A DNA stretch of 64,000 nucleotides from Lentilitoribacter sp. Alg239-R112 (GTDB lineage: Bacteria; Pseudomonadota; Alphaproteobacteria; Rhizobiales; Rhizobiaceae). The position numbers and the translations under genes are program-made. The stretch lies in NCBI RefSeq assembly GCF_900537175.1, contig NZ_LS999835.1, positions 407,141 to 471,140 of the forward strand, written 5' to 3'. The stretch's first letter is position 1. Each line of letters begins with the position of its first letter. Below the pieces are notes generated by a model, which saw only the letters and a program-made list of their open reading frames with translations, was not told the origin of the DNA and searched no databases. Of the stretch, positions 1 to 30,448 are shown piece after piece.

Positions 1-82
1 CTCTATGTTTAGTTCGCAAGAACGGCATAGATAAGAGAAACAGTAGACTAGATAGTAATAGGAAAATTAGAATCCAAATCAT
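1..82 (-). CDS. ccmI: CcmI (CycH)-type cytochrome c biogenesis protein, N-terminal fragment
   Basis: An open frame begins with ATG two bases after the ccmH stop codon and runs off the window edge. The 27 visible residues start MIWILIFLLLSSLLFLLS and form one hydrophobic segment followed by basic residues, as at the N-terminus of CcmI/CycH. CcmI is the TPR-bearing membrane protein that presents apocytochrome c to the CcmF-CcmH haem lyase. The call rests mainly on position directly after ccmF-ccmG-ccmH; no TPR region is visible, so another small membrane protein is possible. Confidence 0.6.
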   Translation of the reverse strand, partial: MIWILIFLLLSSLLFLLSMPFLRTKHR

Positions 83-84
83 GT

Positions 85-522
85 TTAAACCTCCATCTCA
101 TCTAGGCGTTGCTCGTCAAGCACATCTTTTTGACTAGGAGGATCGCGATGCATTGCTTTAATCAATCGGTAAGCAATGAAAATGAACAAAAAGCCAAACC
201 CAAACGGAAGAACCCACAGGAATAGACTGGGGCCATTTGTAGCCGGCTCTAGCAAAACATAGTCTCCATAACGGTCACGAAAAAACAGGATGATGGCATC
301 ATCAGTTGCCCCAGCTTCAATTTGTTCGCGCAGAAGAAACAACATTTCCTGTGCTATTGAGGCCTGGCTGTCCAGTATGTTCTCACTTTGACATACAGGG
401 CACCGGAGAATTGAAGCGAGCTCACGTACTCGAGGCTCATTCTTATTTTCTGTCACGAGTTGTTGGCCACCTGCATGAACAGTCAGCAAGATACCTAACA
501 AAATTGCTATTATGACTCTCAT
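85..522 (-). CDS. ccmH: Cytochrome c maturation protein CcmH (CycL/NrfF type)
   Basis: A 145-residue membrane-anchored periplasmic thioredox protein that reduces and holds the CXXCH motif of apocytochromes for haem attachment. It has an N-terminal signal or anchor segment (about 1-18), the family motif LRCPVCQSENI near residue 40 with its two redox cysteines, and a transmembrane helix at about 100-123. Length fits the short CcmH/CycL/NrfF family; the TPR part (CcmI) is a separate gene just downstream. The start codon overlaps the ccmG stop by 4 bp, so translational coupling is likely. Confidence 0.93.
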   Translation of the reverse strand: MRVIIAILLGILLTVHAGGQQLVTENKNEPRVRELASILRCPVCQSENILDSQASIAQEMLFLLREQIEAGATDDAIILFFRDRYGDYVLLEPATNGPSLFLWVLPFGFGFLFIFIAYRLIKAMHRDPPSQKDVLDEQRLDEMEV

Positions 523-1079
523 GGTTTTACCCCAATTTTGGGTAAAATTTCTTGCAGAACTCGCCTATTCAAAGGTCCAGTGTGACGCCATTGAACTATA
601 CCATCTTCATCTACAAAAAATGTTTCCGGCATGCCATATACGCCAAAATCTATACTTGTGCGGCCACGCGGATCGATGCCAGACGAATAGGGAAGTTGAC
701 CCTGAGTGCTAAGAAATTGTAGCGCGTTATTATTGGTGTCACGCGAGTTTACGCCAACCATGACGAATTCTTTCGTGTTATTTGCCTTACTACCAAGCCA
801 GATAAGTTCATCATGTTCCTGCCTGCAGCTTGTGCACCACGAGGCCCAGAAGTTGATAATAAAGGGCTTACCAAGATAGTCTTCAGTTTTCACTAGACCT
901 GTTTTTGTGAGCATCGGAAGTGAAAAGCCTGGAACCTCACGACCGATGAGAGCCGATGGCAAATAAGAAGGGTCCCGTGTCAAACCAACAGCAAATAGAA
1001 CCAGCAAACTTACTGCAGAACCAGCGAGAACTACACGCCAATTTAGGATATATGATTGCTTTCTGGTTGCGCAGGTCAT
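519..1079 (-). CDS. ccmG: Thiol:disulfide interchange protein CcmG/DsbE
   Basis: A 186-residue membrane-tethered periplasmic thioredoxin that supplies reductant for apocytochrome c maturation. The N-terminus carries one membrane segment (about 15-33). The thioredoxin fold follows, with the active site WASWCTSC (WCxxC) around residue 80 and a GMPETFFVD stretch holding the conserved cis-proline region. Both ends overlap neighbours by 4 bp (ccmF upstream, ccmH downstream). In the classical alphaproteobacterial cycHJKL arrangement ccmG lies elsewhere, so its place between ccmF and ccmH is noteworthy here. Confidence 0.93.
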   Translation of the reverse strand: MTCATRKQSYILNWRVVLAGSAVSLLVLFAVGLTRDPSYLPSALIGREVPGFSLPMLTKTGLVKTEDYLGKPFIINFWASWCTSCRQEHDELIWLGSKANNTKEFVMVGVNSRDTNNNALQFLSTQGQLPYSSGIDPRGRTSIDFGVYGMPETFFVDEDGIVQWRHTGPLNRRVLQEILPKIGVKP

Positions 1080-3079
1080 TCAGCTGGCACCTCAACACTT
1101 TTGGGTAAGTGTACATTAGGCTTACGAAAGGCGACTGATTGTGTGAGTGATAGCATGCTACCCGCAAGCACGATCATCCAACCGAGCCAAATCCATATAA
1201 TTAACGGGTTCCAAAATATTCGCGCTGTTATTCCTCCGCTTTCAGATTCATTGCCCATGACCATGTATAAATCCCCGCTGAAGAAACTATGTATCGCGAT
1301 CTCCGTTGTTGTCATATTTCGAATTTTATAAAATCGCTTCTGGGGCTGCATCACAAAAAGCAAGTTCCCGTTTTGCGAGACACTGAATTCTGCTACGCGG
1401 CCTTGAAAATTTTCGCCGTCCGTATCCGCCAGATTTCGCAGAGTCACCGTGAAATCTGAAATTTCAGTACTTTGTCCGATGTTTAAGAAAACTGTTTTTG
1501 TAGACTGGAAAAGACCGGAACCAATCATACCAGCTGCAATTAGCACGATACCAAAATGAACAATCAGGCTTCCCATTCGTCGCCGGCTATTCGTCAGTGT
1601 TTCATAAATAGAAAGCCACAAGCTAATGCTCTTCAGGCGTTTTCGTGTTGAAACAGCGATTGATATATCTCTGACAATGCAGGCTGCAGCGAAACCAACA
1701 GCAAAAGTTGCGAGAACTGTAATAGTGCGTGCAGCGGGCAAAAACATGCATGCAATAGCTAAGATAGAACCAAAAATTAGTTGCTTATATGATATGCGCC
1801 ATAACCTTTTAAGTGTCATACCACGCCAAGGAATGGATGGCCCGAGCGCCATCAAAAACATAAGCGCGACCATGACTGGCAAAATAACTATGTTGTAATA
1901 TGGTGCGCCAACGGATACTTTCTGGTCAGAGACAACCTCAAGGAAAAGCGGATAAATTGTACCGATAAATACGCATGTTGCTGTGAGTAACAGCAAGATA
2001 CTATTGATCAGAATTCCGCTCTCGCGCGAAATTAGTTTTTCGACAATTGCTTCACTTTCAAGGAGCTGACTGCGCCAAATAATAAGGCCATAGCTGACGA
2101 CCATGGCGACTGCCAAGAAGATCAACATGTAAGTGCCGCGTCCAGGGTCCACTGCGAACGAGTGCACAGACGTTAAAACACCTGAACGAACCAGAAAAGT
2201 TCCAAGTAATGTTAAAAGAAATGTTGTGGTAACAAGGAATACGTTCCAAGTTCGAAACATATGCCGTTTCTCTTGAACCATCATGGAATGCACAAGGGCT
2301 GTTGCAGTCAGCCATGGCATAAGGGAAGCATTTTCTACTGGGTCCCATGCCCAATAGCCTCCCCATCCCAATTCGTAGTAGGCCCAATAACCACCAAAAA
2401 TAATCCCGGAGGTAAGGGCTGCCCAAGAAAACAAAACCCAACGGCGGACTGCCACGACCCACTCTATTCCGCTATACCCGCGGATCAAAGCGGCAATGGC
2501 AAATGCAAATGGAACTGTAAAACCAACATAGCCCAGATAAAGTACAGGTGGATGAAACGCTAAACCGGGGTCCTGCAAGAGTGGGTTCAAGTCCTGACCA
2601 TTTAATGGGGTAGGAGTGAGCGTGAGGAATGGATTTGAAAGAAAAATAATGAAAATTAAAAACCCAATTTGAACCGCACTAAATGTTGCAATAATCAAAG
2701 GCATAGAGAGTGGGAAATTTCTCCAATGAACACAGATCGCACTGAAAGAAAATACCGCCAAATACAACGCCCAGAGAAGTAGGGAACCTTCATGCGCGCT
2801 CCAAAGTGCAGAAACTTTGTAGAGCATAGGCAGGTTCAAATTGCTATTTTGTGCAACATAGGCTGCTGAGAAATCATTTGTGATAAATGCTCGAAAGAGA
2901 ACCAAAACTCCAAACAACACCAATGCAGTATGAATACCCATGGCATTTCTTGCGGAAATCAGCGCAGAAAGATTTCGAGTGCGCTCTGCAACAGTTGCTA
3001 CGATAAAAGCATAGATTGACAATATCAGCGCTAAAGATACAGCAAGTTGGCCAAGTTTTAGATAACTGATGTCCATCAC
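1076..3079 (-). CDS. ccmF: Cytochrome c haem lyase subunit CcmF (CycK)
   Basis: A 667-residue polytopic membrane protein, the core of the haem lyase that attaches haem to CXXCH cysteines. The WWD signature is clear (WGGYWAWDPVENASLMPWL around residue 240) and many hydrophobic helices precede and follow it. Length is normal for CcmF. The start codon ATG overlaps the stop of the upstream MocR-type regulator by 4 bp, and the stop overlaps ccmG by 4 bp. No ccmE, the usual upstream partner that delivers haem to CcmF, is present; the gene must use CcmABCDE encoded elsewhere. Confidence 0.95.
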   Translation of the reverse strand: MMDISYLKLGQLAVSLALILSIYAFIVATVAERTRNLSALISARNAMGIHTALVLFGVLVLFRAFITNDFSAAYVAQNSNLNLPMLYKVSALWSAHEGSLLLWALYLAVFSFSAICVHWRNFPLSMPLIIATFSAVQIGFLIFIIFLSNPFLTLTPTPLNGQDLNPLLQDPGLAFHPPVLYLGYVGFTVPFAFAIAALIRGYSGIEWVVAVRRWVLFSWAALTSGIIFGGYWAYYELGWGGYWAWDPVENASLMPWLTATALVHSMMVQEKRHMFRTWNVFLVTTTFLLTLLGTFLVRSGVLTSVHSFAVDPGRGTYMLIFLAVAMVVSYGLIIWRSQLLESEAIVEKLISRESGILINSILLLLTATCVFIGTIYPLFLEVVSDQKVSVGAPYYNIVILPVMVALMFLMALGPSIPWRGMTLKRLWRISYKQLIFGSILAIACMFLPAARTITVLATFAVGFAAACIVRDISIAVSTRKRLKSISLWLSIYETLTNSRRRMGSLIVHFGIVLIAAGMIGSGLFQSTKTVFLNIGQSTEISDFTVTLRNLADTDGENFQGRVAEFSVSQNGNLLFVMQPQKRFYKIRNMTTTEIAIHSFFSGDLYMVMGNESESGGITARIFWNPLIIWIWLGWMIVLAGSMLSLTQSVAFRKPNVHLPKSVEVPAE

Positions 3080-4563
3080 TTTTCCAGCCCTCTCAAACAG
3101 TCATCAATTCCTGATATGGAGCTTTCTATCTTGGCTTCGCTTATCGCGGCATACCCCATAACAACAGTTTGTGAAAATGACTTGTTTTGCTTGGATATCC
3201 AGGCCCCGCCGGTCTCGGGTCTATATATGCCAATGCCATTTAGTAATGCGGACTTCTCCAACAAAGAAGGACTGCCGTATTTAGCTGGTAAAGACCATGA
3301 TATATGTATACCGGCTGTTTCGCCAACGATCTGACAATCGCCAAATAGGTTATGAAGACCAGAAACAAGGCAATCACGACGCTTCATATAAGCTGTTCGT
3401 ATTCGCCTGAGATGACGGCGGTAGCCGCCGCTATGGATGAACTCAGCCATTGCAGCCTGTTTCATCCAGCCAGTACCATTGCTAATAAGCTGTTTCCAAT
3501 CCCGTAGTGGATGCATGATCTTTGGATTGGCTATTAAGTAGCCTAACCGGAGTGCAGGACCGAAAGATTTAGAAAAGGTGCCGAGATAGATAACACGCCC
3601 TGTTTGATCCAGCCCCCTCAACGAGGTCAGAGGCGCTCCATCGTAACGAAATTCTCCGTCATAATCATCTTCTACAATATAGCTCCCGGTCTTTCTTGCC
3701 CATTCTAACAAGAGAAATCTTCGCTCAAGGGAAAGCGTTGAACCAATTGGATATTGGTGAGATGGCGTTACATAGACAATCCATTTACCTGTTTTGGGCA
3801 ACTCATCGATTTTGATGCCTTGATTATCGACTTGCACTCCTTTGCTTGCGTAGCCCATCGCAGTAAACAGAGCCAGCGCTCCAAGGTAACATGGGTCTTC
3901 GTGCAAAAACCCATATCCTTTGTCTTTGAAGGCCATTGCAAGCAATGTCAGACCATCCTGCGTACCACTTGTAATCAATACGTTATCAAAATTGGTGGAT
4001 ATACCACGAGATGGGCCTACATGATCTGATACCGCGGCGCGCAATGTCTCCAGTCCCTCAGGGCCTCCATAAACCGACATAGAATCGGTTTGATGTCGCA
4101 GTTTGGTTTCAACAATTTTACGCCATTCACTCTTCGGAAATAGTTTTGACTCCGTCCTGCCAATCCAGAAATCAGCCTTGAGCCGCCGACCGTCCGCCCT
4201 TTCATGCTTATGAACCAGAAGGCGATCTATCGGACTAGTTTCATCATCATTCTCGCTGGCAAGAACCCTCTCACCTCCGACGGTGTTTCCTCTTTGTGAG
4301 CTCATGGCAGCTTCAGGCAGTATTGAGCTTACAAAAGTTCCGACATTGGCTTGAGTTTCAATATACCCTTCCGCATATAATCTTTCATAGGCTAACACGA
4401 CAGTATTTCGCGAAACTCCAAGCTGCTCGCTAAGTACTCTCGTTCCAGGTACAGCATCACCGCTTCGCAATCTGCCCTCAAGAATCATCGCGCGAAGCTC
4501 TTGAAAGACTTGCGTTTGAAGTGTTCGTTTATCATCCGGATTTAGTGCTAAAACAACTGGCAT
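3076..4563 (-). CDS. MocR-family GntR/aminotransferase-fold transcriptional regulator
   Basis: A 495-residue regulator of the MocR/PdxR type: an N-terminal GntR winged helix (LSEQLGVSRNTVVLAYERL, about residues 45-75) followed by a type-I aminotransferase-like domain. The PLP lysine is visible in GTFSKSFGPALRLGYL (about residue 332), with the PLP-contacting ED-DYDGEFRYDG stretch ahead of it. I use the ATG at 4563 because a purine-rich GGGGGGGAA site sits just before it; an ATG 11 codons upstream has none. It lies 140 bp after haoB and overlaps ccmF by 4 bp on the same strand, so it probably shares transcription with both. The ligand is unknown; PLP-amino acid adducts are usual for the family. 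Confidence 0.9.
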   Translation of the reverse strand: MPVVLALNPDDKRTLQTQVFQELRAMILEGRLRSGDAVPGTRVLSEQLGVSRNTVVLAYERLYAEGYIETQANVGTFVSSILPEAAMSSQRGNTVGGERVLASENDDETSPIDRLLVHKHERADGRRLKADFWIGRTESKLFPKSEWRKIVETKLRHQTDSMSVYGGPEGLETLRAAVSDHVGPSRGISTNFDNVLITSGTQDGLTLLAMAFKDKGYGFLHEDPCYLGALALFTAMGYASKGVQVDNQGIKIDELPKTGKWIVYVTPSHQYPIGSTLSLERRFLLLEWARKTGSYIVEDDYDGEFRYDGAPLTSLRGLDQTGRVIYLGTFSKSFGPALRLGYLIANPKIMHPLRDWKQLISNGTGWMKQAAMAEFIHSGGYRRHLRRIRTAYMKRRDCLVSGLHNLFGDCQIVGETAGIHISWSLPAKYGSPSLLEKSALLNGIGIYRPETGGAWISKQNKSFSQTVVMGYAAISEAKIESSISGIDDCLRGLEK

Positions 4564-4703
4564 CTTTTCCCCCCCGGATCTACTATAACTTAACATGCGA
4601 CAATATGCATGGTGCCGGCTCCTCTCTTATTGTTGAGTCCGGCTCTAGTATTTGTATTTCGAAATAAGGAATCTACACGCATCAAACCAAAGTTTGGGAA
4701 AGA

Positions 4704-5738
4704 TTAAACTGGTAGTAATTTATAAACCCAGTAGCCGCCCGCCTGAAACACTAGTTTAGTCCCTGGTGCCAGTCCAACTCTCGCGCCATCAAATGGGAGC
4801 AGCAGGCCAATAATCGTCGACTTATCTTTGGCATCAGAGAGAAAGTATACACGTAAGCGCCCATCTGGGATCTTTACTGCGGCATAGGAAGCATAGTTAT
4901 TTACTGCCTGCCAATCCTTAATCAGACGTGTTAAATCATGAGCATGGGCGTCACCTTGAAAATCCTTCATGGCCACCAGCAGCCTGTCACCCAATTCAGC
5001 ACCAAGATCAAATATGTCGCGCAAGTGAAGAATAATATAAGTATCTTCATTTGCAGACAGCGCTCTCATTTGCGCAGCACCATAAATATCTTCTGAGACA
5101 AGCGCTTCACGAAAGTTCATCCATTGTTCGTTTGATGTTTCATTCTCAAAAACTTTAGGTTGCGCATAAGGAAGAATGGCTGAATCCAACCAGCCGTCTG
5201 GCATTTGAGTTGATATAATAGGAGTAACACCCGCCAACGGAACATTTACATCATCCATGATATTTTGAATACGGTTCGATAATTCGGGAAAAGCAAGTAC
5301 CGTCGCAGTCTTGGGCAAGTATTTTTCAAGCGCTGCAAAAAGTTGAAGTTCTTCCTTTGCATAAATATCTGAGCGGAAAATTGGTTGATTAACGTGACTT
5401 TTCCAATTGACTACCAAAGGAGGTTTGCCCTCCATTTCAAGCGCTTCAAATGATGTAATGGCCGCTCTAATTCCATCCATCTTGAGGTCGTATCGTTTAA
5501 TCGTGCCTCCCAGAAGTAGTTTGCTAAGCTCCTTTGTTTCCTCAGAAATATCGGCATCGTCGGCCAACTCCAGCCTAGGGCTTTCGATAGGCTTCTCATT
5601 AGCTTGATGTAAGAAAAACCAGCTGATTAGGATAATTGACGCCAAACCTAAAATGGTGACGGTCGCAATATGCGACCGCCGGAGGGAGTGTTTTGCGATA
5701 CTTGTTCTCTCATGACTTGCTGTTAAAAGAACCATCAC
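4704..5738 (-). CDS. haoB: HaoB-like protein, partner of hydroxylamine oxidoreductase
   Basis: A 344-residue protein with one N-terminal membrane helix (about residues 23-43) and a large extracytoplasmic domain without haem motifs. It matches my recollection of HaoB, the conserved protein of unknown function encoded directly after hydroxylamine oxidoreductase in ammonia oxidisers and some methylotrophs. Segments such as GKPPLVVNWKSHV and a C-terminal GARVGLAPGTKLVFQAGGYW are distinctive. The start overlaps the haoA stop by 4 bp, which supports a joint role. Assignment rests on genomic position and recalled family similarity; no alignment was run. Confidence 0.8.
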   Translation of the reverse strand: MMVLLTASHERTSIAKHSLRRSHIATVTILGLASIILISWFFLHQANEKPIESPRLELADDADISEETKELSKLLLGGTIKRYDLKMDGIRAAITSFEALEMEGKPPLVVNWKSHVNQPIFRSDIYAKEELQLFAALEKYLPKTATVLAFPELSNRIQNIMDDVNVPLAGVTPIISTQMPDGWLDSAILPYAQPKVFENETSNEQWMNFREALVSEDIYGAAQMRALSANEDTYIILHLRDIFDLGAELGDRLLVAMKDFQGDAHAHDLTRLIKDWQAVNNYASYAAVKIPDGRLRVYFLSDAKDKSTIIGLLLPFDGARVGLAPGTKLVFQAGGYWVYKLLPV

Positions 5739-7309
5739 TTAGCCTCAAGTTCTTCGATGCGTTTCTTAAGTGCAGCTTTCTCGCGAAGCTGTGTATCTGC
5801 ATCGCGGATACGCGCTAGGCTACGAACCAGTTTCGCCCAACCATCGGTGTAAGTAAAACCACCCGGGTTCACATGAGCAAGTCCTTTGAAATGCCTCATA
5901 TTATGTTGCTCCCACATTTCCGCGAATTCTACATCAACAGCGGTTGGGTTATTACCCTTAGTGAAAAAGAAGCTAAAGAAACCGCCAGGTCCGTCTTCAT
6001 CCGGATGAGGTGGTGCCGGACGATTTGTGGTTTGTCCGACTAGAAGACCATCGGCATATAAACCATCCATGACTTCTCTCGCCTGTGAAACTAAGGCAAT
6101 GCCTTGAGCCGTACCTTTATCAATAACGTCAAAGTAACTGCGAGCAAAACGCTCAGAATGGCATTGAGAACAGGTGGTTATCCAACTATCAAGTCGATCT
6201 GAATACCATTCATCATTAATGTTCTCTGCTGTTTCGGGCAGAGGATTGAAACCCCACCGTACTTTGCGAACTACATTATGGCCGTATTCTCCATCATATT
6301 CCATATGGCAGGTCTGGCAGGTTGGCGCAGTTTGACCACCCTTTTCAAAAGCATCAGCCAACGGTAGTTCCCAATCCCACTGATCACCTGAACTGTTGTA
6401 AATTGCGCCATGCCGGGAAAGCATAAAGTTTTCGAATTCATTATGATCGACACCATTATGGCATGTTGAACAAGCCTCTGGTTTTCGTGCTTCAGCTGCA
6501 GAAAACTTATGCCTTGAATGACAAGAACCGCAGGTGTTTTGCGTTGTGTGACACAGTGTGCAACCAACGGCAATTTCGCGTTCCTCCATGCCTGCCCAGA
6601 TGGCTGTGTCGACGTTTGCCAAATATGACAGCGCATGCGAAGGACGGCCAGCTGGCCATTGGCCTTGAGGCCAATTCTGGGTATCGCGTTCTGATTCACG
6701 CTCGGCGAACTCTTTTACATGGCACTGACCACATGCTGCGGCATCCGGCATTTTCAGATCAGCCTGGTGATTACCTTTCTCAGCACCCACCCCAATATGA
6801 CAATCGATACAACCAACCGAATTGAGTGGTTGATCCTTCTCTAACAATCCCATGGAACGAAGGTTGTTTTCGACATCATTGATCATGTCTTTTTTATAAA
6901 AACGAGAGTCCGTCGGATCCAGTTTACGGATTTCGTCCAGATTTCCATGCACGCTTCCTTTCCAGGAATGTACCCAACCAGGCGTCACCGATTCATGGCA
7001 GGCGACACAATCACTGCGTTCAACTTCAAAGTCTAACTCAGGCGGCACGTAGTGTTCGGTTGGATTTAGGTACATTGAAAATGGAATGGGTTCCCACAAA
7101 TCAGACAACGCTCCTTCACCTGCACCCTGAGCGGGGTCTCGATAACGCTCAACAATTGCATCATAAAGCACATTTGGCGCAACACTTTTCTCGAGATTAA
7201 GCGCCTCATAAAGTTCATCAGGAATGTCTGCCCGTGCACCGGAAGACGCCAACATTGCAAAGGTAGTGAACAAGACAATTAGCGTCTGAATACAGTTTCT
7301 ATGAATCAT
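5735..7309 (-). CDS. haoA: Octahaem hydroxylamine oxidoreductase-type cytochrome c
   Basis: A 524-residue periplasmic multihaem cytochrome c that by family oxidises hydroxylamine (product NO or nitrite). A signal peptide (about 1-27, ending SSGARA) is followed by eight CXXCH motifs at about residues 101, 167, 193, 250, 260, 280, 331 and 380, the spacing of HAO. After the last haem, GLAHVNPGGFTYTDGW (about 476-491) contains tyrosine 487, the best candidate for the P460 cross-link (Tyr467 of mature Nitrosomonas enzyme); that mapping is inference. The C-terminus is a short charged helix. I chose the ATG at 7309 because GGGAGGGGAA precedes it and it starts a signal peptide; the frame is open 28 codons further. 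No cytochrome c554 or cM552 gene adjoins it. Confidence 0.92.
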   Translation of the reverse strand: MIHRNCIQTLIVLFTTFAMLASSGARADIPDELYEALNLEKSVAPNVLYDAIVERYRDPAQGAGEGALSDLWEPIPFSMYLNPTEHYVPPELDFEVERSDCVACHESVTPGWVHSWKGSVHGNLDEIRKLDPTDSRFYKKDMINDVENNLRSMGLLEKDQPLNSVGCIDCHIGVGAEKGNHQADLKMPDAAACGQCHVKEFAERESERDTQNWPQGQWPAGRPSHALSYLANVDTAIWAGMEEREIAVGCTLCHTTQNTCGSCHSRHKFSAAEARKPEACSTCHNGVDHNEFENFMLSRHGAIYNSSGDQWDWELPLADAFEKGGQTAPTCQTCHMEYDGEYGHNVVRKVRWGFNPLPETAENINDEWYSDRLDSWITTCSQCHSERFARSYFDVIDKGTAQGIALVSQAREVMDGLYADGLLVGQTTNRPAPPHPDEDGPGGFFSFFFTKGNNPTAVDVEFAEMWEQHNMRHFKGLAHVNPGGFTYTDGWAKLVRSLARIRDADTQLREKAALKKRIEELEAK

Positions 7310-7413
7310 GAATTCCCCTCCCGTCCCACAAGCTGACGCAGGACTATCAAGAGGCAATATTACAATTGGTGCTCGAGAAGGAGGTAGATCCATGCCCCGA
7401 ATAAATGATGGGG

Positions 7414-7431
7414 CCGGTTGTAATCAACCGG
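7414..7431. promoter_or_regulatory. Inverted repeat upstream of haoA (possible operator)
   Basis: Perfect 7-bp arms CCGGTTG and CAACCGG flank the 4-base centre TAAT. It lies 105-122 bp upstream of the haoA start codon. No poly-T tract follows, so an operator is more likely than a terminator. The binding protein is unknown; the MocR-type regulator in the same gene train is one candidate. Confidence 0.4.
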
Positions 7432-7610: not shown

Positions 7611-7997
7611 ATGCATAAACTCCTGCTCCTCATAATTGGCACGATTTATATTATTAACTCGCTCGTCATGTGGTTCACACCAATATGGTGGTACGAAACC
7701 GTTCCAGGCATTACAATGATGGGTCCATTTAATTTGCATTTCGTACGCGATATAGGTTTGGTCTACCTCATTTCTGGCATCGGATTAATCTATGGCATAC
7801 GTGTGCCACAAGTTGCTATTTTCGCATGCTTATGGCCAGCTCTACATGCCTTATTTCATGCATGGATTTTTATCCAAAGAGGTATGCCATTTGATGTAAT
7901 CGCTGCAACAAATCTGTTCCTGATTCAGCTTCCAGCATGGTTGAGTGTTTGGGCTGCGATCCAACGCTTTCCTGCGCTGCAGGAAGAAGGACGTTGA
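7611..7997 (+). CDS. Small four-helix membrane protein, unknown function
   Basis: A 128-residue protein that is almost entirely hydrophobic, with four likely membrane helices (about 3-22, 45-63, 66-85, 98-117). It is rich in tryptophan and histidine (HFVRDIG, WPALHALFHAW), residues that could bind metal or haem, but no recognised motif is present. I do not recognise the family. It is divergent from haoA across a 300-bp region, so co-regulation is possible but unproven. ATG 7611 follows GAAGAGAAACTCCACC; the site is weak. Confidence 0.7.
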   Translation: MHKLLLLIIGTIYIINSLVMWFTPIWWYETVPGITMMGPFNLHFVRDIGLVYLISGIGLIYGIRVPQVAIFACLWPALHALFHAWIFIQRGMPFDVIAATNLFLIQLPAWLSVWAAIQRFPALQEEGR

Positions 7998-8208: not shown

Positions 8209-8949
8209 TTATTCCCATGTTACATTTGCAACAAACATGTAACCAGCTCCATAAATAGTCTTTATGAGTTTTGGTGCTTGGGGGTCTTCATTTAGTTTTG
8301 AACGTAAGCGTGAAATGCGCACATCGATGGATCGATCGAAATTCTGTTCAGCATCAATATCTAATGTGTTGAGTATTTGAGAGCGTGAAAACAATCTATT
8401 TGGACCTGATATAAACATTTTCATAATGTCCATTTCAGCTTTGGTTAATGGTGTGGAATGACCATCGACATGTGTCAAAGAATAGTTGGTTAAATCAATT
8501 GTCCAGTCATCAAAGAATGCTTTAAGATATTTCTTACCGTATGTATCATTAATTACTGCAGGTGTGCTCGCCTTTTCCGTACGGCGTAAAACGGTTCGTA
8601 TACGGGCAATTAATTCCGCAGTTTCAAATGGTTTTGAAATGTAATCATCGGCACCCATTTCAAGGCCTACTATTTTGTCACTTAATCCACGTCTACCTGA
8701 AATTATAATACTGGCAATCTGGTATTTGTCGTTCAGCAACTTAATAAGATCCAACCCATTTTGGTCCGGCAGTCCAAGATCTATTAGGCATAGATCCGGC
8801 TTAAATACTTCTAGCTCGATCTCAAATGCAGAAGCCGATTCAAAATGTCGGGCAGTAAAACCATAACTCTCAACCGCGATACGGATGTTCTCAGCGATAT
8901 CGCAATCATCTTCGACAATAGCGATTTTGTGTGCAAGTGCATTTTTCAT
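8209..8949 (-). CDS. OmpR-family response regulator
   Basis: A 246-residue two-component regulator. The receiver domain (about 8-120) has the acidic pair ED at 13-14, the phosphoacceptor D57 in CLIDLGLPDQNG, and K106 in DDYISKPFE. The C-terminal winged helix (about 145-240) includes FSRSQILNTL and RSIDVRISRLRSKLNEDP-KLIKTIYGAGYMF, typical of OmpR/PhoB. It sits 31 bp after the hybrid kinase gene on the same strand, so the two form a pair. The likely target is the divergent ligase/ABC-transporter operon that begins at 11158, given the shared control region. Confidence 0.93.
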   Translation of the reverse strand: MKNALAHKIAIVEDDCDIAENIRIAVESYGFTARHFESASAFEIELEVFKPDLCLIDLGLPDQNGLDLIKLLNDKYQIASIIISGRRGLSDKIVGLEMGADDYISKPFETAELIARIRTVLRRTEKASTPAVINDTYGKKYLKAFFDDWTIDLTNYSLTHVDGHSTPLTKAEMDIMKMFISGPNRLFSRSQILNTLDIDAEQNFDRSIDVRISRLRSKLNEDPQAPKLIKTIYGAGYMFVANVTWE

Positions 8950-8980
8950 GTAACGATCTTCTTTTTTATGTCCGTTGACA

Positions 8981-11011
8981 TCAGCTTAGTAAGCCTAGAA
9001 TTGTTTTTGCAAAAACTTGAGAATCAAATGGTTTACGAAGGAGAGTGAATTCATTTTGAGCGTCTTTTATTATCGGGTCTTGTCGCGGTAAACCGCTTAC
9101 CAATAATATATTTAGTTCCGGTTTGATTACACTCCATTTGCGCGCTAAGTCTAATCCGTTTTCCAAACCGGGCATAATGATATCGGTAATCACTGTGGTT
9201 ATTTCTGGGACTTGTTCCACAAGGTTACAAGCTTCAATAGCACCATTTGCTTCGATATTTGGTATCCCAAGGGTGACTAGGTGATTTCGCATAAGTGCCC
9301 TAAGCTCCGGATCATCATCAACGATGAGGAACAACTGGTTACTTAAGTTCTTAAGTTGAGTTGGAGTCTCATTTAGTTTGTTTTGAGATGTACAGAATGG
9401 AATCTTCAAGCAGACCTGCCCGCCACCGTCTTGCGTATTTGACAGTTCCAGTTCTCCTGCGGATTGTTCAAGAAACGTATTTACCATGGAAAGCCCAAGT
9501 CCGGTTCCTTTCCCTTGTGGCTTAGTTGTAAAGAATGGCTCTTTTGCTTTAGCAATTACGTCTTCTGAGAAGCCATGACCGGTGTCCGTGATGTTAATAC
9601 AAACAGTTTTCTTTTCATCTTCATCTGTGTTTTCAATCTTTGCAGAGACGGTAATTTTACCTTCTCCATGGTGAGTTTCAATTGCATCTCGTGCATTAAA
9701 TAAAACATTTAGGATAGCATCTTGAAATGCGCCTTCGTCTACCTGGCTGATGATTTCTTCATCACCGAGTTCGAGGTTGATATTGATGGAGCTGGAAAGC
9801 GAAGCGGAAAAGAGTTTTACCAGATCTCGAAGCAAAGCAGATAAGTTCGTAATTTTAATATCAAGGTTTTGGCGAAATAAGAAAGACATCAAATTATCAA
9901 TTATGCGAGTACCGCGTCTAGCAGCCTGCTCTGTAGAGCGGATCAAATCGGACTGCGAGTTGTCTGCTGCTTTTTCGATACGTTCGAGATTACCCAAGAT
10001 TACGGTCAAAATATTTGAAAAGTCATGCGCAAGTCCGCTGGTCAATTGAGCAGTTGTTTCCAATCTATTTGCTCTTAACTGCATTTCGTTGGCAGCAATT
10101 TCCGCAGACACGTTTAGAGACTGAACAAAAACACCATGTGTTACCCCTTCTTCATCTATGTCTGGTGAGAATGTTGTGCGCACGGAATGTATATCGTCTT
10201 CGATGCCTTCTACCCTGTAACTAAAAGTTATTGTGTTCCCCTGAAGGGCGGTTTCCAAATTTGGTTGTATGTGTGCCAAAACTTTTTTGGGAAATACTTC
10301 TGTAATATTTTTATCAACGAGACTGTCTCGTTGGATTCCCATGACATCAGAAAATCGATTGTTGGAGAAGCGATAAATGCAGTGTTCGTCAATATAAGCA
10401 ATATGAGCTGGCATTGCGCGCGTAATCTTGCGCATTCGCCCTTCTGAAACAAGCAATTCTTGTTTGGTTTTTTGAAGAGCGCGATTTGCTGCCTCTAGAG
10501 CGCGGTTGGTTTCTGATAATTGGCCGGTACGACGCAATAGCTTGTCAGATAGTTCATCGCTGCGTGCTCTAAGTACTTGTTCATTTCGCCAAGTTTCGGT
10601 GATGTCAGAATAAATAGTCACCCATCCTCCGCTTTCAAGTGGGTGCCCCTCAACTGATATGCGTTGTCCATTTGGTCTGGTACGTTCAAAATAATGCGGT
10701 TCAAACAAGCGGGCACGTTCTATCCGTTCTGCCGCCAATAAGCCTACATCACCAGGCCCAAATTCACCGCGGCGTGCCAAAAAATAGTTCAGATCTGCAA
10801 AAGAAAGACCCGGGATGATAATCTCGTTAGGCAATTCAAATAGATCGATAAAACGTTGATTGCAGGTTACTAATGTCATGTTTGCATTAAAAATCGACAA
10901 GGCTTGCTGAATGAGATTCAGGCCTTGTTCGATAACGAGATGATCGTTTGATTTATCTGTGGTTCTGGTATTGTAAACTGCTGGCAAACTCGAACCCTCC
11001 TTGTCCAACAT
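8981..11011 (-). CDS. Hybrid sensor histidine kinase with two PAS domains and a receiver
   Basis: A 676-residue cytoplasmic kinase with no membrane segment. Order: PAS_7-type sensor (about 30-140), coiled coil (145-190), second PAS (195-305), HisKA with phosphoacceptor H329 in GLAHDFSN, HATPase with N435/N439, DTGHGF and GTGLGLSMV (about 425-540), and a receiver (558-676) with D610 and K660. A soluble sensor suggests an intracellular ligand. The ATG at 11011 has no clear ribosome site, whereas a TTG at 10987 (residue 9) is preceded by AAGGAGG, so the shorter form may be real. It is divergent from livG across 146 bp containing a large palindrome. Confidence 0.92.
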   Translation of the reverse strand: MLDKEGSSLPAVYNTRTTDKSNDHLVIEQGLNLIQQALSIFNANMTLVTCNQRFIDLFELPNEIIIPGLSFADLNYFLARRGEFGPGDVGLLAAERIERARLFEPHYFERTRPNGQRISVEGHPLESGGWVTIYSDITETWRNEQVLRARSDELSDKLLRRTGQLSETNRALEAANRALQKTKQELLVSEGRMRKITRAMPAHIAYIDEHCIYRFSNNRFSDVMGIQRDSLVDKNITEVFPKKVLAHIQPNLETALQGNTITFSYRVEGIEDDIHSVRTTFSPDIDEEGVTHGVFVQSLNVSAEIAANEMQLRANRLETTAQLTSGLAHDFSNILTVILGNLERIEKAADNSQSDLIRSTEQAARRGTRIIDNLMSFLFRQNLDIKITNLSALLRDLVKLFSASLSSSININLELGDEEIISQVDEGAFQDAILNVLFNARDAIETHHGEGKITVSAKIENTDEDEKKTVCINITDTGHGFSEDVIAKAKEPFFTTKPQGKGTGLGLSMVNTFLEQSAGELELSNTQDGGGQVCLKIPFCTSQNKLNETPTQLKNLSNQLFLIVDDDPELRALMRNHLVTLGIPNIEANGAIEACNLVEQVPEITTVITDIIMPGLENGLDLARKWSVIKPELNILLVSGLPRQDPIIKDAQNEFTLLRKPFDSQVFAKTILGLLS

Positions 11012-21811: not shown

Positions 21812-22513
21812 TTAATTTGTAATACCATTGGCAACCAACATAAGTTTATGTCCTTCCACCAGGGTGATTTTCTGCCGCCCAGATTTAATAAGTCCCTTAT
21901 CTTCCCAGGCACTCAAAAGTCGAGATACAGTATGAAGAGTAGTTCCTGTCATCTCAGAAATATCTTTTCGTGAAATAGGGAAGTCAATTAATATGCCTTC
22001 TTCGGTCTTTCGTCCTGTTTGATTTGCAAGCTTTAAAACGGCATTTGCAATACGTTGTTCGACTTTTTCTGTTGCTAACTCGACTACATGTTGTTGTGTC
22101 TCGATAAGCCGCTCACCGACAGTTTTGTAGGTGTTCGATGCAAATGTTGGGTACTTATCAGTTAACTCATCCCAAATTGCATCTGATATAACAAGCACAA
22201 CACAATCAACTGCAGCAATTGCACTGGCGGGGTAATTTTTTTGGCCAACGGCTTTGGCAATGCCAAATAATTCGCCACTGGTGATATATCTCATAACAAC
22301 TTGCTCACCATCAGGCGTAAGCTTTGCAACTTGTATATAGCCATCCAATAACACATAGAATTTATGGGCTTCATCGGCTTGAGAAAAAATTGCATCGCCT
22401 TTAGCAAAGTGCTCCGAGCGAGCTACACCCAATAGTTCGGCTAAGGCCTCGTGATCCATGTCAAGAAATGGAGGTAAATCCTTGATCAGCGATTGGTCGA
22501 GCGACATATTCAT
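21812..22513 (-). CDS. Crp/Fnr-family regulator (Dnr/NnrR-like)
   Basis: A 233-residue regulator: cyclic-nucleotide-like sensor domain (about 15-130), dimer helix, and Crp-type HTH (about 165-220, with FPISRKDISEMTGTTLHTVSRLLSAWEDKGLI). It lacks the N-terminal cysteine cluster of oxygen-sensing Fnr; only one cysteine is visible (AVDCVVLV). That and its place beside nnrS and nos fit a Dnr/NnrR-type NO-responsive activator, by inference. An FNR-type box lies 13-26 bp before its start codon, suggesting autoregulation. Confidence 0.88.
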   Translation of the reverse strand: MNMSLDQSLIKDLPPFLDMDHEALAELLGVARSEHFAKGDAIFSQADEAHKFYVLLDGYIQVAKLTPDGEQVVMRYITSGELFGIAKAVGQKNYPASAIAAVDCVVLVISDAIWDELTDKYPTFASNTYKTVGERLIETQQHVVELATEKVEQRIANAVLKLANQTGRKTEEGILIDFPISRKDISEMTGTTLHTVSRLLSAWEDKGLIKSGRQKITLVEGHKLMLVANGITN

Positions 22514-22525
22514 TTGTAATTTTCT

Positions 22526-22539
22526 TTGATCATACGCAA
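22526..22539 (-). promoter_or_regulatory. FNR/NnrR-type box upstream of the Crp/Fnr gene
   Basis: TTGATCATACGCAA fits TTG-N8-CAA, with one FNR-like half (TTGAT) and one NnrR-like half (CGCAA). It is very close to the Crp/Fnr start codon (22513), a position that would suit autorepression, and about 150 bp from nnrS. Confidence 0.5.
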
Positions 22540-22600
22540 GCCCAGCTCTTTAAACTCAGGTTATTAGTATCGTGTTGACTAACTATATATCTAGACCAAT

Positions 22601-22617
22601 ACTTGCCAACTGCAAGT
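22601..22617. promoter_or_regulatory. Inverted repeat upstream of nnrS
   Basis: Perfect 6-bp arms ACTTGC and GCAAGT flank the centre CAACT. It lies 68-84 bp before the nnrS ATG. The TTG-to-CAA gap is 7 rather than the 8 of Crp/Fnr boxes, so it may be bound by a different regulator. Confidence 0.35.
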
Positions 22618-22684
22618 GATAATCTTGCTCTAGAAATGCAAAGCGTTTTTGCAGATCATATCTTGCTGTTCTCAGGTGGTATAA

Positions 22685-23863
22685 ATGGCAGAAAAAACAA
22701 ATAGAAGTACTTTAACTATCCCACTGTTAAGTGTTGGTTTTAGACCGTTCTTTCTGCTTGCATCAGGATATACGGCTTTCAGCATGGTTTTATGGTTGCC
22801 TTATTTTCAAGGTGAACTGGAACTATACACCACATTTACTGTTGTTGATTGGCACATTCATGAGTGGCTTTTCGGTTTCCTACCGGCAATTATAACGGGA
22901 TTTCTTCTGACGGCAGTTCCAAACTGGACGGGTCGTCTGCCGATACGTGGTATATCGCTGGCTTTTCTAGTATCTATCTGGATTTTTGGGCGTATTGCCA
23001 TCTCATTTTCAGATCTGATAGGCTGGCTTTTTACCGCACTGATCGACTGTTCGTTCCTGATACTCGTTGCGCTCCTTATCGCACGCGAAGTAATAACGGG
23101 GAAGAACTGGAAGAATTTAAAGGTGCTTCTTCCGCTTTCAATCTTGGCACTGGCAAATATCTTCTTTCATATTGAAAGTGCTTTTCATGGCAGTACTGAC
23201 ATCAGTAGACGTTTTGGAATAGCCGCGAGCATAGCCCTTATACTCCTCATTGGAGGGCGCATTATACCAAGCTTCACAAGAAATTGGTTAGTTCGAGAGA
23301 ACCCAGGAAAGCTACCTAAACCATTTGGAAAATTTGATATGTATTCAATTGTAATGAGCATAATCGCACTACTATGCTGGATTGTGTTTCCAAATGTACT
23401 GGCAACAGGAATATTGCTTATTTTAGCAGGTGTTGTGCAGTTCATTCGGTTGTGCAGATGGGCGGGACACCGAACATGGTATGAGCCTTTGGTTGTGATT
23501 TTGCATCTAAGTTACTTGTTTATCCCGATCGGATTTCTTCTATTAAGTCTGGGTATATTTTTCCCCGAAACTGTTCCACTTGCTGCTGGCATTCACATTC
23601 TTGGGGTAGGTGCAATAGGAGGTATGACCCTTTCGGTTATGATGCGAGCATCACTTGGTCATACTGGCCAAGACCTTAAGGCCTCTCCATTTTCGGTTTT
23701 AATATTTGCTGGCCTTGTGGTGTCTGTGTGTGCAAGACTTTTTCAAGCTTTGTCGATAGGCGATTATGAACTTATGTTCACCATTTCTGGTGTGGCTTGG
23801 ATTTTCGCTTTTGGTGGTTTCGCGTTATCTTATGGTCCAGCACTGTTAAGACCAAAAGGCTAA
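22685..23863 (+). CDS. nnrS: NnrS family haem-copper membrane protein
   Basis: A 392-residue polytopic protein with about twelve hydrophobic helices. The family start LLSVGFRPFFLLASGYTAFSMVLWL and the WHIHEWLFGFLPAIITGFLLTAVPNWTG region with conserved histidines are clear. NnrS is a membrane haem/copper protein linked to NO stress and denitrification regulons; it eases nitrosative stress by a mechanism not fully settled. It is divergent from the Crp/Fnr regulator and converges on nosX. Confidence 0.93.
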   Translation: MAEKTNRSTLTIPLLSVGFRPFFLLASGYTAFSMVLWLPYFQGELELYTTFTVVDWHIHEWLFGFLPAIITGFLLTAVPNWTGRLPIRGISLAFLVSIWIFGRIAISFSDLIGWLFTALIDCSFLILVALLIAREVITGKNWKNLKVLLPLSILALANIFFHIESAFHGSTDISRRFGIAASIALILLIGGRIIPSFTRNWLVRENPGKLPKPFGKFDMYSIVMSIIALLCWIVFPNVLATGILLILAGVVQFIRLCRWAGHRTWYEPLVVILHLSYLFIPIGFLLLSLGIFFPETVPLAAGIHILGVGAIGGMTLSVMMRASLGHTGQDLKASPFSVLIFAGLVVSVCARLFQALSIGDYELMFTISGVAWIFAFGGFALSYGPALLRPKG

Positions 23864-23892
23864 CCTTTCTCGGAACATCAATCCTAATTGTG

Positions 23893-23911
23893 GTTTAGGG
23901 TGTACCTAAAC
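23893..23911. terminator. Weak hairpin between convergent nnrS and nosX
   Basis: Arms GTTTAGG and CCTAAAC (7 bp) flank a 5-base loop between the two converging genes. No long T-run follows on either strand, so it may be only a weak bidirectional terminator. Confidence 0.35.
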
Positions 23912-23997
23912 ACCACTCGTTAAAGTGAAAGGCGGTCTGATTTGAAGCAATGATAAAATCGACCTTTGCCCAGTAGCTTTATCTATCGTTTACCCAT

Positions 23998-24948
23998 TCA
24001 ACTTTGGTGCTTAAATTCTTCTCCGCTATTAAACTTAGCCAACAAGAGCGTATTTTGAAATCGGACAAGCATGTCTTCAATTTGACTTTCATTCATCAAA
24101 GATGCGGCAGTTGAAATACCATCTGCGAGCGAAGCTGATTTATTTATGACACTTATGCTTTGCCAAAGGTTCTGGCCGGGTATTCCATGTTTGGGGTCCA
24201 AGATATGTCCAATATACCCATCGAATGTTGTGCCATTTACAGATGATGTTGCAATTGATGTGTCCGACAGCGGGACTATTTTATCTGCAATATCCCGGTC
24301 TGCATTCGATAAACTCACATTCCAAGGCTTACCTCGCTCATTTTGGCCAAGGGCTGAGATTTCACCCATCTTTACAACCGCATTTCGCAAACCTTCTGAT
24401 TTGAGAACCTGCACAATACGATCTGTTACGAAACCCTGAGCAATACCATTTAAAGTCAATGCCATTGCAGGCATAGCAAATTGGATCACTTGAGTGGAAT
24501 GTTCCACATTATCCCAACCCACTAACTTAAGTTTCTGTTCTAATAAATTGCGTGGTGGGTGGCCTTTATGTTCCGCATAAATCTGCCAAAGCGGCTGTAT
24601 AGTTGGGTCAAAATATCCACCACTGGCGTCATGAATAAGGTCGATGGTTGAGAATAATGATACTAGCTCAAGCGGGGGATTTTCCAGCAGACCAAATCGG
24701 TTTAGTCGCATCAATGCACTATTTGACCTGTAAAGACTAAAGATATCTTCAAGTCGATTTACTTCATCGACTACGAGTTTAATAACTTGCTTCGCATCAT
24801 GCTCTGCCATGTCTGAGATAATAAGCTGCGAGTCAGCCCCCAAAACAATGCCTTTCCAGTTTACTGGTTTAACGTGAGCCGAGTATGTTGAAGTTGCAAA
24901 CGTCGCACCGGCAGCAATGGTTATGAATCGCCTTCGATTTATACTCAT
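23998..24948 (-). CDS. nosX: NosX, ApbE-family flavin transferase
   Basis: A 316-residue exported protein of the ApbE/NosX family, which attaches FMN covalently to a threonine of target proteins, here most likely NosR. A twin-arginine-type leader (NRRRFITIAAGATFA) is followed by ApbE motifs: EDIFSLYRSNSALMRLN, GGYFDPTIQPLW, LNGIAQGFVTDRI and a C-terminal region with DGISTAASLM. It overlaps nosL by 4 bp and ends the nos operon. Confidence 0.93.
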   Translation of the reverse strand: MSINRRRFITIAAGATFATSTYSAHVKPVNWKGIVLGADSQLIISDMAEHDAKQVIKLVVDEVNRLEDIFSLYRSNSALMRLNRFGLLENPPLELVSLFSTIDLIHDASGGYFDPTIQPLWQIYAEHKGHPPRNLLEQKLKLVGWDNVEHSTQVIQFAMPAMALTLNGIAQGFVTDRIVQVLKSEGLRNAVVKMGEISALGQNERGKPWNVSLSNADRDIADKIVPLSDTSIATSSVNGTTFDGYIGHILDPKHGIPGQNLWQSISVINKSASLADGISTAASLMNESQIEDMLVRFQNTLLLAKFNSGEEFKHQS

Positions 24949-25487
24949 TGAACGCTTCCTGTCGTCTGGTGATTAATATCAACGGGCCCTAGGACATATT
25001 CATCAGGAATATCATCAAGTTTTACGATGGTTCCGCCGTTCTCAAACTTAAAAGCCAGCGCACCCTCCATTGAATCAAATGGGATTGTTTCAGGCGCGCC
25101 CATGCCGCCCGTTGCGTTGCTATTTATTACGAAATATGCCTGATTTATATCTATCCATGCGTTGTCCCCCGGTGCTGCCCAGCTGGCAGCTTTAGACATG
25201 TCATGGACATAGATTGCTGCAATTTCAAAAGTTTCTTCGGGTAGTCGCGTATAAGCCACTGCATCGCGAACCTGTGAGAACCAGATTGGAAACTTTATGT
25301 TTTTGAGATGAATTTGAGCTTTCGGGCCTTCATGTTCAAGAATGTTCATATTGCAGTAATGGCCAACTGCTTCTTCCGTCATTGCGATAGCATCTGGTAC
25401 ATTCGTGCTCGTGCTTTGACCACTACACCCTGTCAAAACAAGTGATGCTAGCAGCGCTGAAAATTGGGTTAGATGTTTTACATTCAT
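24945..25487 (-). CDS. nosL: NosL copper-binding lipoprotein
   Basis: A 180-residue outer-face lipoprotein that supplies Cu(I) for assembly of NosZ copper sites. A signal peptide with lipobox LTGC (cysteine about residue 21) and the copper motif region HYCNMNILEHEGPKAQIHL are present. The frame is open 18 codons further up, but the ATG at 25487 follows AGAGGG and gives a normal lipoprotein signal; it overlaps the nosY stop by 4 bp. Confidence 0.92.
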   Translation of the reverse strand: MNVKHLTQFSALLASLVLTGCSGQSTSTNVPDAIAMTEEAVGHYCNMNILEHEGPKAQIHLKNIKFPIWFSQVRDAVAYTRLPEETFEIAAIYVHDMSKAASWAAPGDNAWIDINQAYFVINSNATGGMGAPETIPFDSMEGALAFKFENGGTIVKLDDIPDEYVLGPVDINHQTTGSVQ

Positions 25488-28484: not shown

Positions 28485-28499
28485 TGTCTTCTCCGTGGT

Positions 28500-30419: not shown

Positions 30420-30448
30420 AATATGTTCCCCTTTCCGAATGTGAACAT

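Follow-up and report, generated by a model that had tools for sequence, protein, structure and literature searches.

The window analysed here is a stretch of 64,000 nucleotides (C3:407141-471140) from the genome of Lentilitoribacter sp. Alg239-R112, which comprises 3.91 Mb in four contigs. The genes at its beginning probably form a self-contained cassette for hydroxylamine oxidation. It consists of the octahaem hydroxylamine oxidoreductase (HAO) HaoA with HaoB, the haem lyase proteins CcmF-G-H-I, the 5-aminolevulinate synthase (ALAS) HemA, and a dedicated switch of the MocR type, for which the name HaoR is proposed. We estimate the probability of this reading at roughly 0.7. The genes follow one another on the minus strand in the order haoA-haoB-mocR-ccmF-ccmG-ccmH-ccmI-hemA (Table 1). 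This succession is not due to chance, because the full order from haoA to hemA was found again in 11 other loci (L015, L018-L021, L023, L024, L026, L030, L031, and L055). In L026, the haoB and mocR frames are broken, and L021, the record of which is titled only Proteobacteria, was counted as alphaproteobacterial type by its cassette.

Gene content of the cassette

The initial annotation of the window had described a train of seven genes from haoA to ccmI, and each of these was recovered on the minus strand. The 4-bp overlaps of haoA/haoB, mocR/ccmF, ccmF/ccmG, and ccmG/ccmH agreed to the nucleotide. The extent of the train had been underestimated, as hemA, which lies beyond ccmI, also belongs to it. 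The ccmI gene starts 2 bp past ccmH, and hemA begins 18 bp past ccmI. As had been stated, ccmE, ccmB, and ccmC had no match in the 17 kb around the locus, and the sole ccmA match was the ABC ATPase of another transporter. CcmI has no Pfam match; it was putatively assigned from its position and from 36% identity to its Ruegeria pomeroyi counterpart, which is annotated merely as a tetratricopeptide repeat protein.

HaoA matched the solved HAO structures 6m0p, 4fas, and 1fgj over its full length (E values from 6e-199 to 3e-198). Its eight haem motifs are all CXXCH, and no other CXXC is present. The motif GG[FW]TY[TS]xGW was found as well, and its Y487, which we take to be the tyrosine of the P460 cross-link, is invariant in 21 sequences. 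The longest open reading frame of haoA opens at 7393, but the start at 7309 is preferred because GGAGGGG lies directly upstream and because 7393 falls inside the conserved operator described below. The TIGR04392 score of HaoB is slightly below the cut-off of 200, and the R. pomeroyi protein to which it was compared is annotated as HaoB. No genes for ammonia monooxygenase (AMO) were found in the genome, in a search whose control runs detected those of a Methylocystis genome and not those of the Nitrosomonas metagenome-assembled genome (MAG); AMO is likely absent from this genome.

Table 1. Features of the cassette and its candidate operator sites; positions refer to the window unless a contig is given.
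Feature	Position	Strand	Basis
haoA, octahaem hydroxylamine oxidoreductase, 524 aa	5735..7309	-	match to HAO structures (PDB), eight CXXCH, 73.8% to R. pomeroyi HaoA
haoB	4704..5738	-	TIGR04392, 197.5 bits; 43% to R. pomeroyi HaoB
mocR, regulator with GntR and aminotransferase domains, member of the hao-specific MocR clade; PLP lysine K343	3076..4596	-	domains, tree
ccmF, second haem lyase of the genome	1076..3079	-	family match, tree, four conserved His, GGYWAWD
ccmG/dsbE, thioredoxin-like	519..1079	-	TIGR00385, 135.3 bits (cut-off 123.15); WCTSC
ccmH, short, NrfF-like	85..522	-	PF03918; LRCPVC
ccmI, first codons only in the window	1..82	-	full gene C3:406293-407222; putative, from position and R. 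pomeroyi counterpart
hemA, 5-aminolevulinate synthase, outside the window	C3:404979-406274	-	581.5 bits (cut-off 338.55)
Paired candidate operator boxes before haoA	7385..7417	-	cores 24 bp apart, 76-108 bp upstream of the start; 6.3 and 7.3 bits, both over threshold
Paired candidate boxes before mocR	4610..4642	-	cores 24 bp apart, 14-46 bp upstream of the start; near box 8.6 bits

A second haem lyase in the genome

Three genes of the Cytochrom_C_asm family are present in the genome. Besides the cassette ccmF, these are a ccmF that belongs to an ordinary ccmI-E-F-H set and a ccmC that belongs to a ccmA-B-C-G set. The second ccmF/ccmH set for which a search had been proposed is thus located elsewhere in the genome; its ccmA was identified by Pfam as an ABC ATPase only. 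Compared with the canonical CcmF of its own genome, the cassette CcmF shows 38% identity; with the cassette CcmF of R. pomeroyi, it shares 62.5%. A search of plasmids with this protein matched 194 records, and after R. pomeroyi the next value among the matches listed was 40.4%. The cassette CcmF contains four conserved His and the WWD-type motif GGYWAWD (not GGWWFWD), CcmH contains LRCPVC, and CcmG contains WCTSC. We take the four His with a WWD-type motif, LRCXXC, and WCXXC to be the functional marks of a System I (Ccm) haem lyase. The WWD motif reads GGYW[AG]WD in all 14 alphaproteobacterial-type hao-linked CcmFs of the tree described below, and the solved CcmF 6zmq likewise has GGYWAWD. Compared with NrfE-type models, the cassette CcmF scored below the cut-offs of TIGR03145 (527.8 versus 927.3) and TIGR00353 (549.2 versus 569.05) and above that of PRK10369 (413.7 versus 394).

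Two or three CcmF copies were found in each of six genomes with an alphaproteobacterial cassette (L019, L020, L024, L026, L030, and L039). Two Rhodocyclales genomes have a single CcmF, which is hao-linked, and two gammaproteobacteria (L078 and L091) have two CcmFs, one of them hao-linked. Two plasmids, of Ruegeria THAF33 and Roseovarius THAF8, carry ccmF-dsbE-ccmH-ccmI with no annotated hao gene within 7 kb; these blocks are neighboured by DsbD-like genes and, in one case, also by SCO and copper-chaperone genes.

Shared history of HaoA and the ccm genes

The CcmF tree contained 37 sequences. The 14 alphaproteobacterial-type hao-linked CcmFs formed one clade (support 100/100) apart from the canonical CcmFs, within which the CcmF of the window paired with that of R. 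pomeroyi (82/96). The hao-linked CcmFs of the two Rhodocyclales and the two gammaproteobacteria nested within the canonical group of beta- and gammaproteobacteria, and therefore, ccm genes joined hao more than once. L015, a near copy of L023 by its CcmF scores, was excluded from the trees, and a partial CcmF (L063) and duplicates of CcmF genes already included were left out of this one.

The distances between loci were compared with those of HaoA for 12 loci, and the correlations were 0.85 for MocR, 0.84 for CcmF, 0.84 for HaoB, 0.81 for CcmH, 0.81 for HemA, 0.79 for CcmG, and 0.75 for CcmI. In a small set of six genomes, the hao-linked CcmF reached 0.89 compared with 0.60 for the canonical CcmF; for L024 and L030, one of two non-hao copies was chosen as the canonical one. 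The shared history of CcmF and HaoA that the initial annotation had asked about is supported both by the separate clade and by the distances. In the HaoA tree, the 15 alphaproteobacterial-type loci with ccm genes require 9 label changes, whereas the shuffled mean is 14.0, and therefore, gains, losses, or truncated contigs are mixed in.

Distribution of the cassette

The best 120 of 630 HaoA relatives were listed, and the loci of 80 of 244 relatives were taken from genome contigs. Among these 80 loci, many of which are on short contigs, ccmF, ccmG, or ccmH was found on the examined DNA in 18, and 12 of these 18 also have hemA. R. pomeroyi, Mesorhizobium, and Roseovarius share the gene order, which is followed by ccmE, and the R. 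pomeroyi DSS-3 copy resides on a 491-kb megaplasmid (NC_006569.1).

The proteins were also searched in 394 genomes of the same family; for CcmF and MocR, no more than three candidates of each genome were scored among the matches listed. HaoB, the cassette-type CcmF (E ≤ 1e-170), and the MocR (at least 548 bits) all occurred in the same 4 genomes. By simple counting, the chance of such a co-occurrence (4/4 versus 0/390) is about 1e-9, and two of the four genomes belong to the same genus. Two more family genomes, both devoid of HaoB (G032 and G358), contain a MocR at about 300 bits (38-40% identity); these were not accepted as hao-type, as their neighbourhoods differ. None of the other three genomes of the same genus, two of them 82-87% complete, contains the cassette. 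A gain by transfer, which had been suggested from the window, is likely in view of the 4 of 394 family genomes, the lack in the three congeners, the 471-kb contig here, and the megaplasmid in R. pomeroyi. The link to HAO had been regarded as incidental in the event that ccmFGHI was the only set of the genome and relatives without haoA had the same mocR-ccmF order. Instead, a further set is present, and the cassette-type CcmF occurred in none of the 390 HaoB-free genomes.

A MocR clade linked to HaoA

After HaoB, MocR is the most widely conserved partner of HaoA, a point that the initial annotation had missed. The MocR of the window, one of seven MocR-like proteins encoded in the genome, combines a GntR winged helix with an aminotransferase I (fold-type I) domain and has kept the lysine for pyridoxal 5'-phosphate (PLP). 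Non-nitrifier loci with 5 kb or more on either side of haoA numbered 33; mocR lies no further than 6 kb from haoA in 23 of them and on the fragment in 25. At the hao loci of Nitrosomonas and Nitrosospira, it was found in 0 of 17, 14 of them short, and one Nitrosomonas genome searched whole had no hao-type MocR at E ≤ 1e-20. In the MocR tree, 40 hao-linked MocRs and two unlinked MocRs of genomes with HaoA formed one clade against 26 paralogues (100 in the SH-like approximate likelihood ratio test, SH-aLRT). This clade spans alpha-, beta-, and gammaproteobacteria. The L026 MocR was excluded from the MocR sets because of a broken reading frame in the MAG. In a Rhodocyclales locus, genes for cytochrome c554 and a NapC/NirT protein are situated between haoB and mocR, and in a gammaproteobacterium, a NapC/NirT gene occupies this gap.

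The PLP lysine is retained in 38 of the 40 hao-linked MocRs and in both unlinked ones. In L067 and L085, Asn or Arg replaces it, either by sequence errors or because these are PLP-independent members. Arg386 of aspartate aminotransferase (AAT) and Arg207 and Arg430 of GabR presumably grip the carboxylate of the ligand, which is gamma-aminobutyric acid (GABA) in the case of GabR. An arginine at the AAT Arg386 position was found in 0/40 hao-linked MocRs versus 19/26 paralogues, at the GabR 430 position in 1/40 versus 4/26, and at the GabR 207 position in none of either group. The MocR of the window has G and T at the GabR positions 207 and 430. Other residues could take over the role of the absent arginines.

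Paired boxes upstream of haoA and mocR

Palindromic TGGNNCCA boxes are enriched upstream of haoA and mocR, often at a distance of 24 or 35 bp. In 67 upstream regions, 26 box pairs were found at 24 bp, 15 at 35 bp, and 13 at 59 bp, whereas the means of 100 shuffling rounds were 0.28, 0.23, and 0.11, and the maxima were 2, 2, and 1. Seven divergent duplicate upstream regions and the near copies L020, L046, L073, and L078 were excluded from these counts. In cross-tests, a model trained on beta- and gammaproteobacteria found 54 sites in 37 alphaproteobacterial regions versus 16.3 after shuffling, with 7 pairs at 24 bp and 5 at 35 bp (means 0.04 and 0.04). Conversely, a model trained on alphaproteobacteria found 89 sites in 26 beta- and gammaproteobacterial regions versus 40.8, with 11 and 7 pairs (means 0.45 and 0.30). 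For these counts, the loci, among them L064 (Rhodospirillales) and L025 (Steroidobacteraceae), were sorted by title, and the outcome was the same when L064 and L025 were left out.

In 14 haoA upstream regions, mostly of Nitrosomonas, with no mocR on the examined DNA, 8 sites were found versus 8.3 after shuffling, and there were no spaced pairs. Fifteen regions of the Methylocystis-Hyphomicrobium range yielded 22 sites versus 12 and no spaced pairs. A composite pattern fitted to the two sites of the window, which match by construction, had no third match in the whole genome. We infer that MocR may bind the paired boxes before haoA and before its own gene, and the positions of the boxes relative to the two starts (Table 1) suggest activation of haoA and self-repression of mocR.

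Proposed mechanism and alternatives

We propose that CcmFGHI would attach haem to HaoA, with haem supplied by the ordinary Ccm system of the genome, and that HemA would make additional haem precursor. By acting at the paired boxes, MocR (HaoR) would control haoA and itself, so that mocR-ccmFGHI-hemA would probably rise together with haoAB; it would activate haoA from the upstream site and repress itself from the site near its start. The trigger would be hydroxylamine acting on the PLP of MocR. The Ccm part of this model is well supported in that CcmFGHI would represent an extra haem lyase dedicated to HaoA but dispensable, the dedication being supported by distribution and history, and CcmFGHI would presumably prefer HaoA. 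Besides the cassette hemA, two further ALAS genes of the genome exceed the cut-off (C1:1055748 and C1:1459236). The cassette hemA can be read in two ways, as a haem supply for the octahaem enzyme or as a replacement for a PLP enzyme damaged by hydroxylamine. In Methylocystis SC2, ammonium raises HaoA and HaoB, and it also raises a 5-aminolevulinate synthase, the latter with p values from 0.000 to 0.079 over four steps, in the available part of the source (PMC9600857).

Several observations weigh against the cassette reading. Among 14 genomes searched whole, four (Oceanibacterium, Methylocystis Sn-Cys, Sedimenticola, and Ideonella) have HaoA with a single CcmF, on a contig without hao, and no hao-linked ccm genes; this rules out that HaoA strictly needs a hao-linked lyase. 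The idea of a haem lyase devoted to HAO, raised in the initial annotation, is thus upheld by the separate clade, the co-occurrence with HaoB, and the HaoA-like distances, but not as a necessity. The cassette here is without ccmE, which its nearest relatives carry, and the correlated history may reflect mere co-transfer of one block. All 8 long-flank loci that lack mocR belong to the Methylocystis clade; in the genome of one of them, a hao-type MocR is encoded at another place, on a contig of equal size (97,779 bases). With regard to the operator, the more distant of the two boxes before mocR in the window scores 2.6 bits, below the threshold of 4.5, and the box model was trained on the same regions in which boxes were counted, apart from the separate cross-tests. 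In addition, 66 random 260-mers of hao loci contained 80 sites versus 62 and 3, 2, and 3 pairs at 24, 35, and 59 bp (shuffle means 0.12, 0.20, and 0.21), some of which are perhaps true operators.

The ccm-hemA block might instead be a general cytochrome c booster that travels with haoAB and matures any c-type cytochrome without a preference for HaoA. This has a serious chance, somewhat short of even: the HaoA motifs are ordinary CXXCH, the similar ccmFGHI blocks on the Ruegeria and Roseovarius plasmids adjoin other genes, and beta- and gammaproteobacteria combine hao-mocR with unrelated canonical-type ccm genes. A booster of any cytochrome is harder to reconcile with the lack of the hao CcmF type in the 390 HaoB-free family genomes and with distances that track those of HaoA.

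For the regulator, direct or indirect sensing of hydroxylamine through PLP is the best-fitting mechanism for the HaoA-linked MocR clade. MocR is a candidate hydroxylamine sensor because it is of the PLP type, is encoded beside a hydroxylamine-removing enzyme, has a pocket without the usual grip for an amino acid carboxylate, and because hydroxylamine cleaves the PLP-lysine bond. According to the accessible text of PMC7077987, this cleavage occurs in yeast ALAS and leaves PLP-oxime. We infer that MocR may respond either to oxime formation on its PLP or to a loss of PLP caused by hydroxylamine. In the former case, hydroxylamine would attack the PLP-lysine aldimine, and the freed lysine and the altered pocket would switch HaoR and induce HAO; the cassette hemA, which encodes a PLP enzyme, would replace hydroxylamine-damaged ALAS and supply haem. 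This direct version is tentative. In the latter case, MocR would sense PLP itself like PdxR and feel hydroxylamine only via PLP loss, which is possible, if a little doubtful. The NCBIfam PdxR model gives 409.8 for the MocR of the window, above its cut-off of 320 (GabR model: 278, below 600), and the missing carboxylate-binding arginines fit PLP as effector equally well. However, the MocR clade goes with haoA, the genes listed for the window and for the R. pomeroyi cassette include none for PLP synthesis, and the hao loci yielded no homologue of PdxY or YggS in a search that did not include pdxST, pdxJ, and pdxH. It is unlikely that MocR answers to some other amine or an amino acid, such as a glycine or GABA-like signal, with the hao link reflecting general nitrogen control. 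GabR is a solved relative of MocR and uses GABA, and the hemA product uses glycine, but the near-complete absence of the three arginines from the hao-linked MocRs (0/40, 1/40, and 0/40) argues against such ligands.

Neighbouring genes in the window

The genes adjoining haoA (8209-11011) encode a response regulator and a PAS-PAS-histidine kinase-receiver hybrid. This two-component system was rejected as a part of the cassette, because other hao loci had no counterpart above 60 bits, save one kinase match of 26% (L057). The same applies to a 128-aa protein (7611-7997), for which no counterpart above 60 bits was found at other hao loci. An N2O-reductase region is located at 21812-32677 and contains NnrS, NosL, and ApbE-type proteins identified by Pfam, together with a Crp/Fnr-like regulator and nosY/F/D/Z/R-like open reading frames judged by eye. 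Genes for hydroxylamine oxidation and denitrification are thus neighbours in the window.

Comparison with known systems

The hao clusters of Nitrosomonas and Nitrosococcus oceani (Noc0891-0895) share haoA-haoB with the cassette. The nearest published match among the literature searched is N. oceani, which has a GntR regulator gene beside haoA, as here (PMC3772326, as far as the available text goes). In that cluster, according to the same text, genes for c554 and cM552 follow haoB, whereas here mocR and then ccmFGHI-hemA follow, and no AMO was found.

In E. coli, NrfEFG likewise are CcmF, CcmH, and CcmI paralogues encoded beside a multihaem enzyme, NrfA, which they may serve (PMC12285233, available part). 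The parallel to NrfEFG drawn in the initial annotation did not hold, as it implies an unusual haem motif: NrfEFG serves CXXCK, whereas the eight motifs of HaoA are ordinary CXXCH, and a requirement of the NrfEFG type was discarded. E. coli NrfE falls outside the hao-CcmF clade, albeit on a long branch.

A parallel to the hao-MocR is DnfR, a MocR that governs the hydroxylamine-related dnf cluster of Alcaligenes, as described in the accessible part of PMC12575085; its ligand is still to be identified according to the available text of PMC11440038. For comparison, AurF was found over the cut-off in 64 of 399 genomes of the order of an Ideonella genome (G403), and the five best-scoring loci were examined. 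The four adjacent MocRs, which are presumed to be dnf-like and were not verified as DnfR, fell outside the hao-MocR clade, and each keeps the Arg at the AAT Arg386 or the GabR 430 position. At a threshold of 6, no boxes were found before the AurF-linked mocR genes of L200, L202, and L203 and one single box before that of L201, while three weak boxes precede the AurF gene of L202 and one that of L203. An FNR-like gene is present in four of the five AurF loci (L200-L203, Burkholderiales). Of these four, all have a YggS-like gene (Ala_racemase_N), three have a PdxY-like kinase gene, and two have a gene for serine hydroxymethyltransferase, which was searched for only there. Provided that the clusters are dnf-like, such PLP-related genes fit a general connection of hydroxylamine with PLP.

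The literature searched, with partial coverage that leaves novelty unproven, contained no description of a hao-mocR-ccm-hemA cassette or of the R. pomeroyi hao locus and no paper on a hydroxylamine sensing that switches on HAO outside the classical nitrifiers. For such a switch, the locus yields one candidate regulator, which is conserved across alpha-, beta-, and gammaproteobacteria, a likely operator, and a chemically plausible trigger. It also presents a case in which a set for haem supply and haem attachment moves with one multihaem enzyme, while other ccm genes were recruited separately beside hao in beta- and gammaproteobacteria. The R. pomeroyi DSS-3 hao locus has the identical order haoA-haoB-mocR-ccmF-G-H-I-hemA and additionally ccmE, truncated haemoglobin, and cbb3 oxidase genes, as annotated in its record. 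Because this species, which we take to be culturable, carries the same locus, both the lyase and the sensing ideas are directly testable in it.

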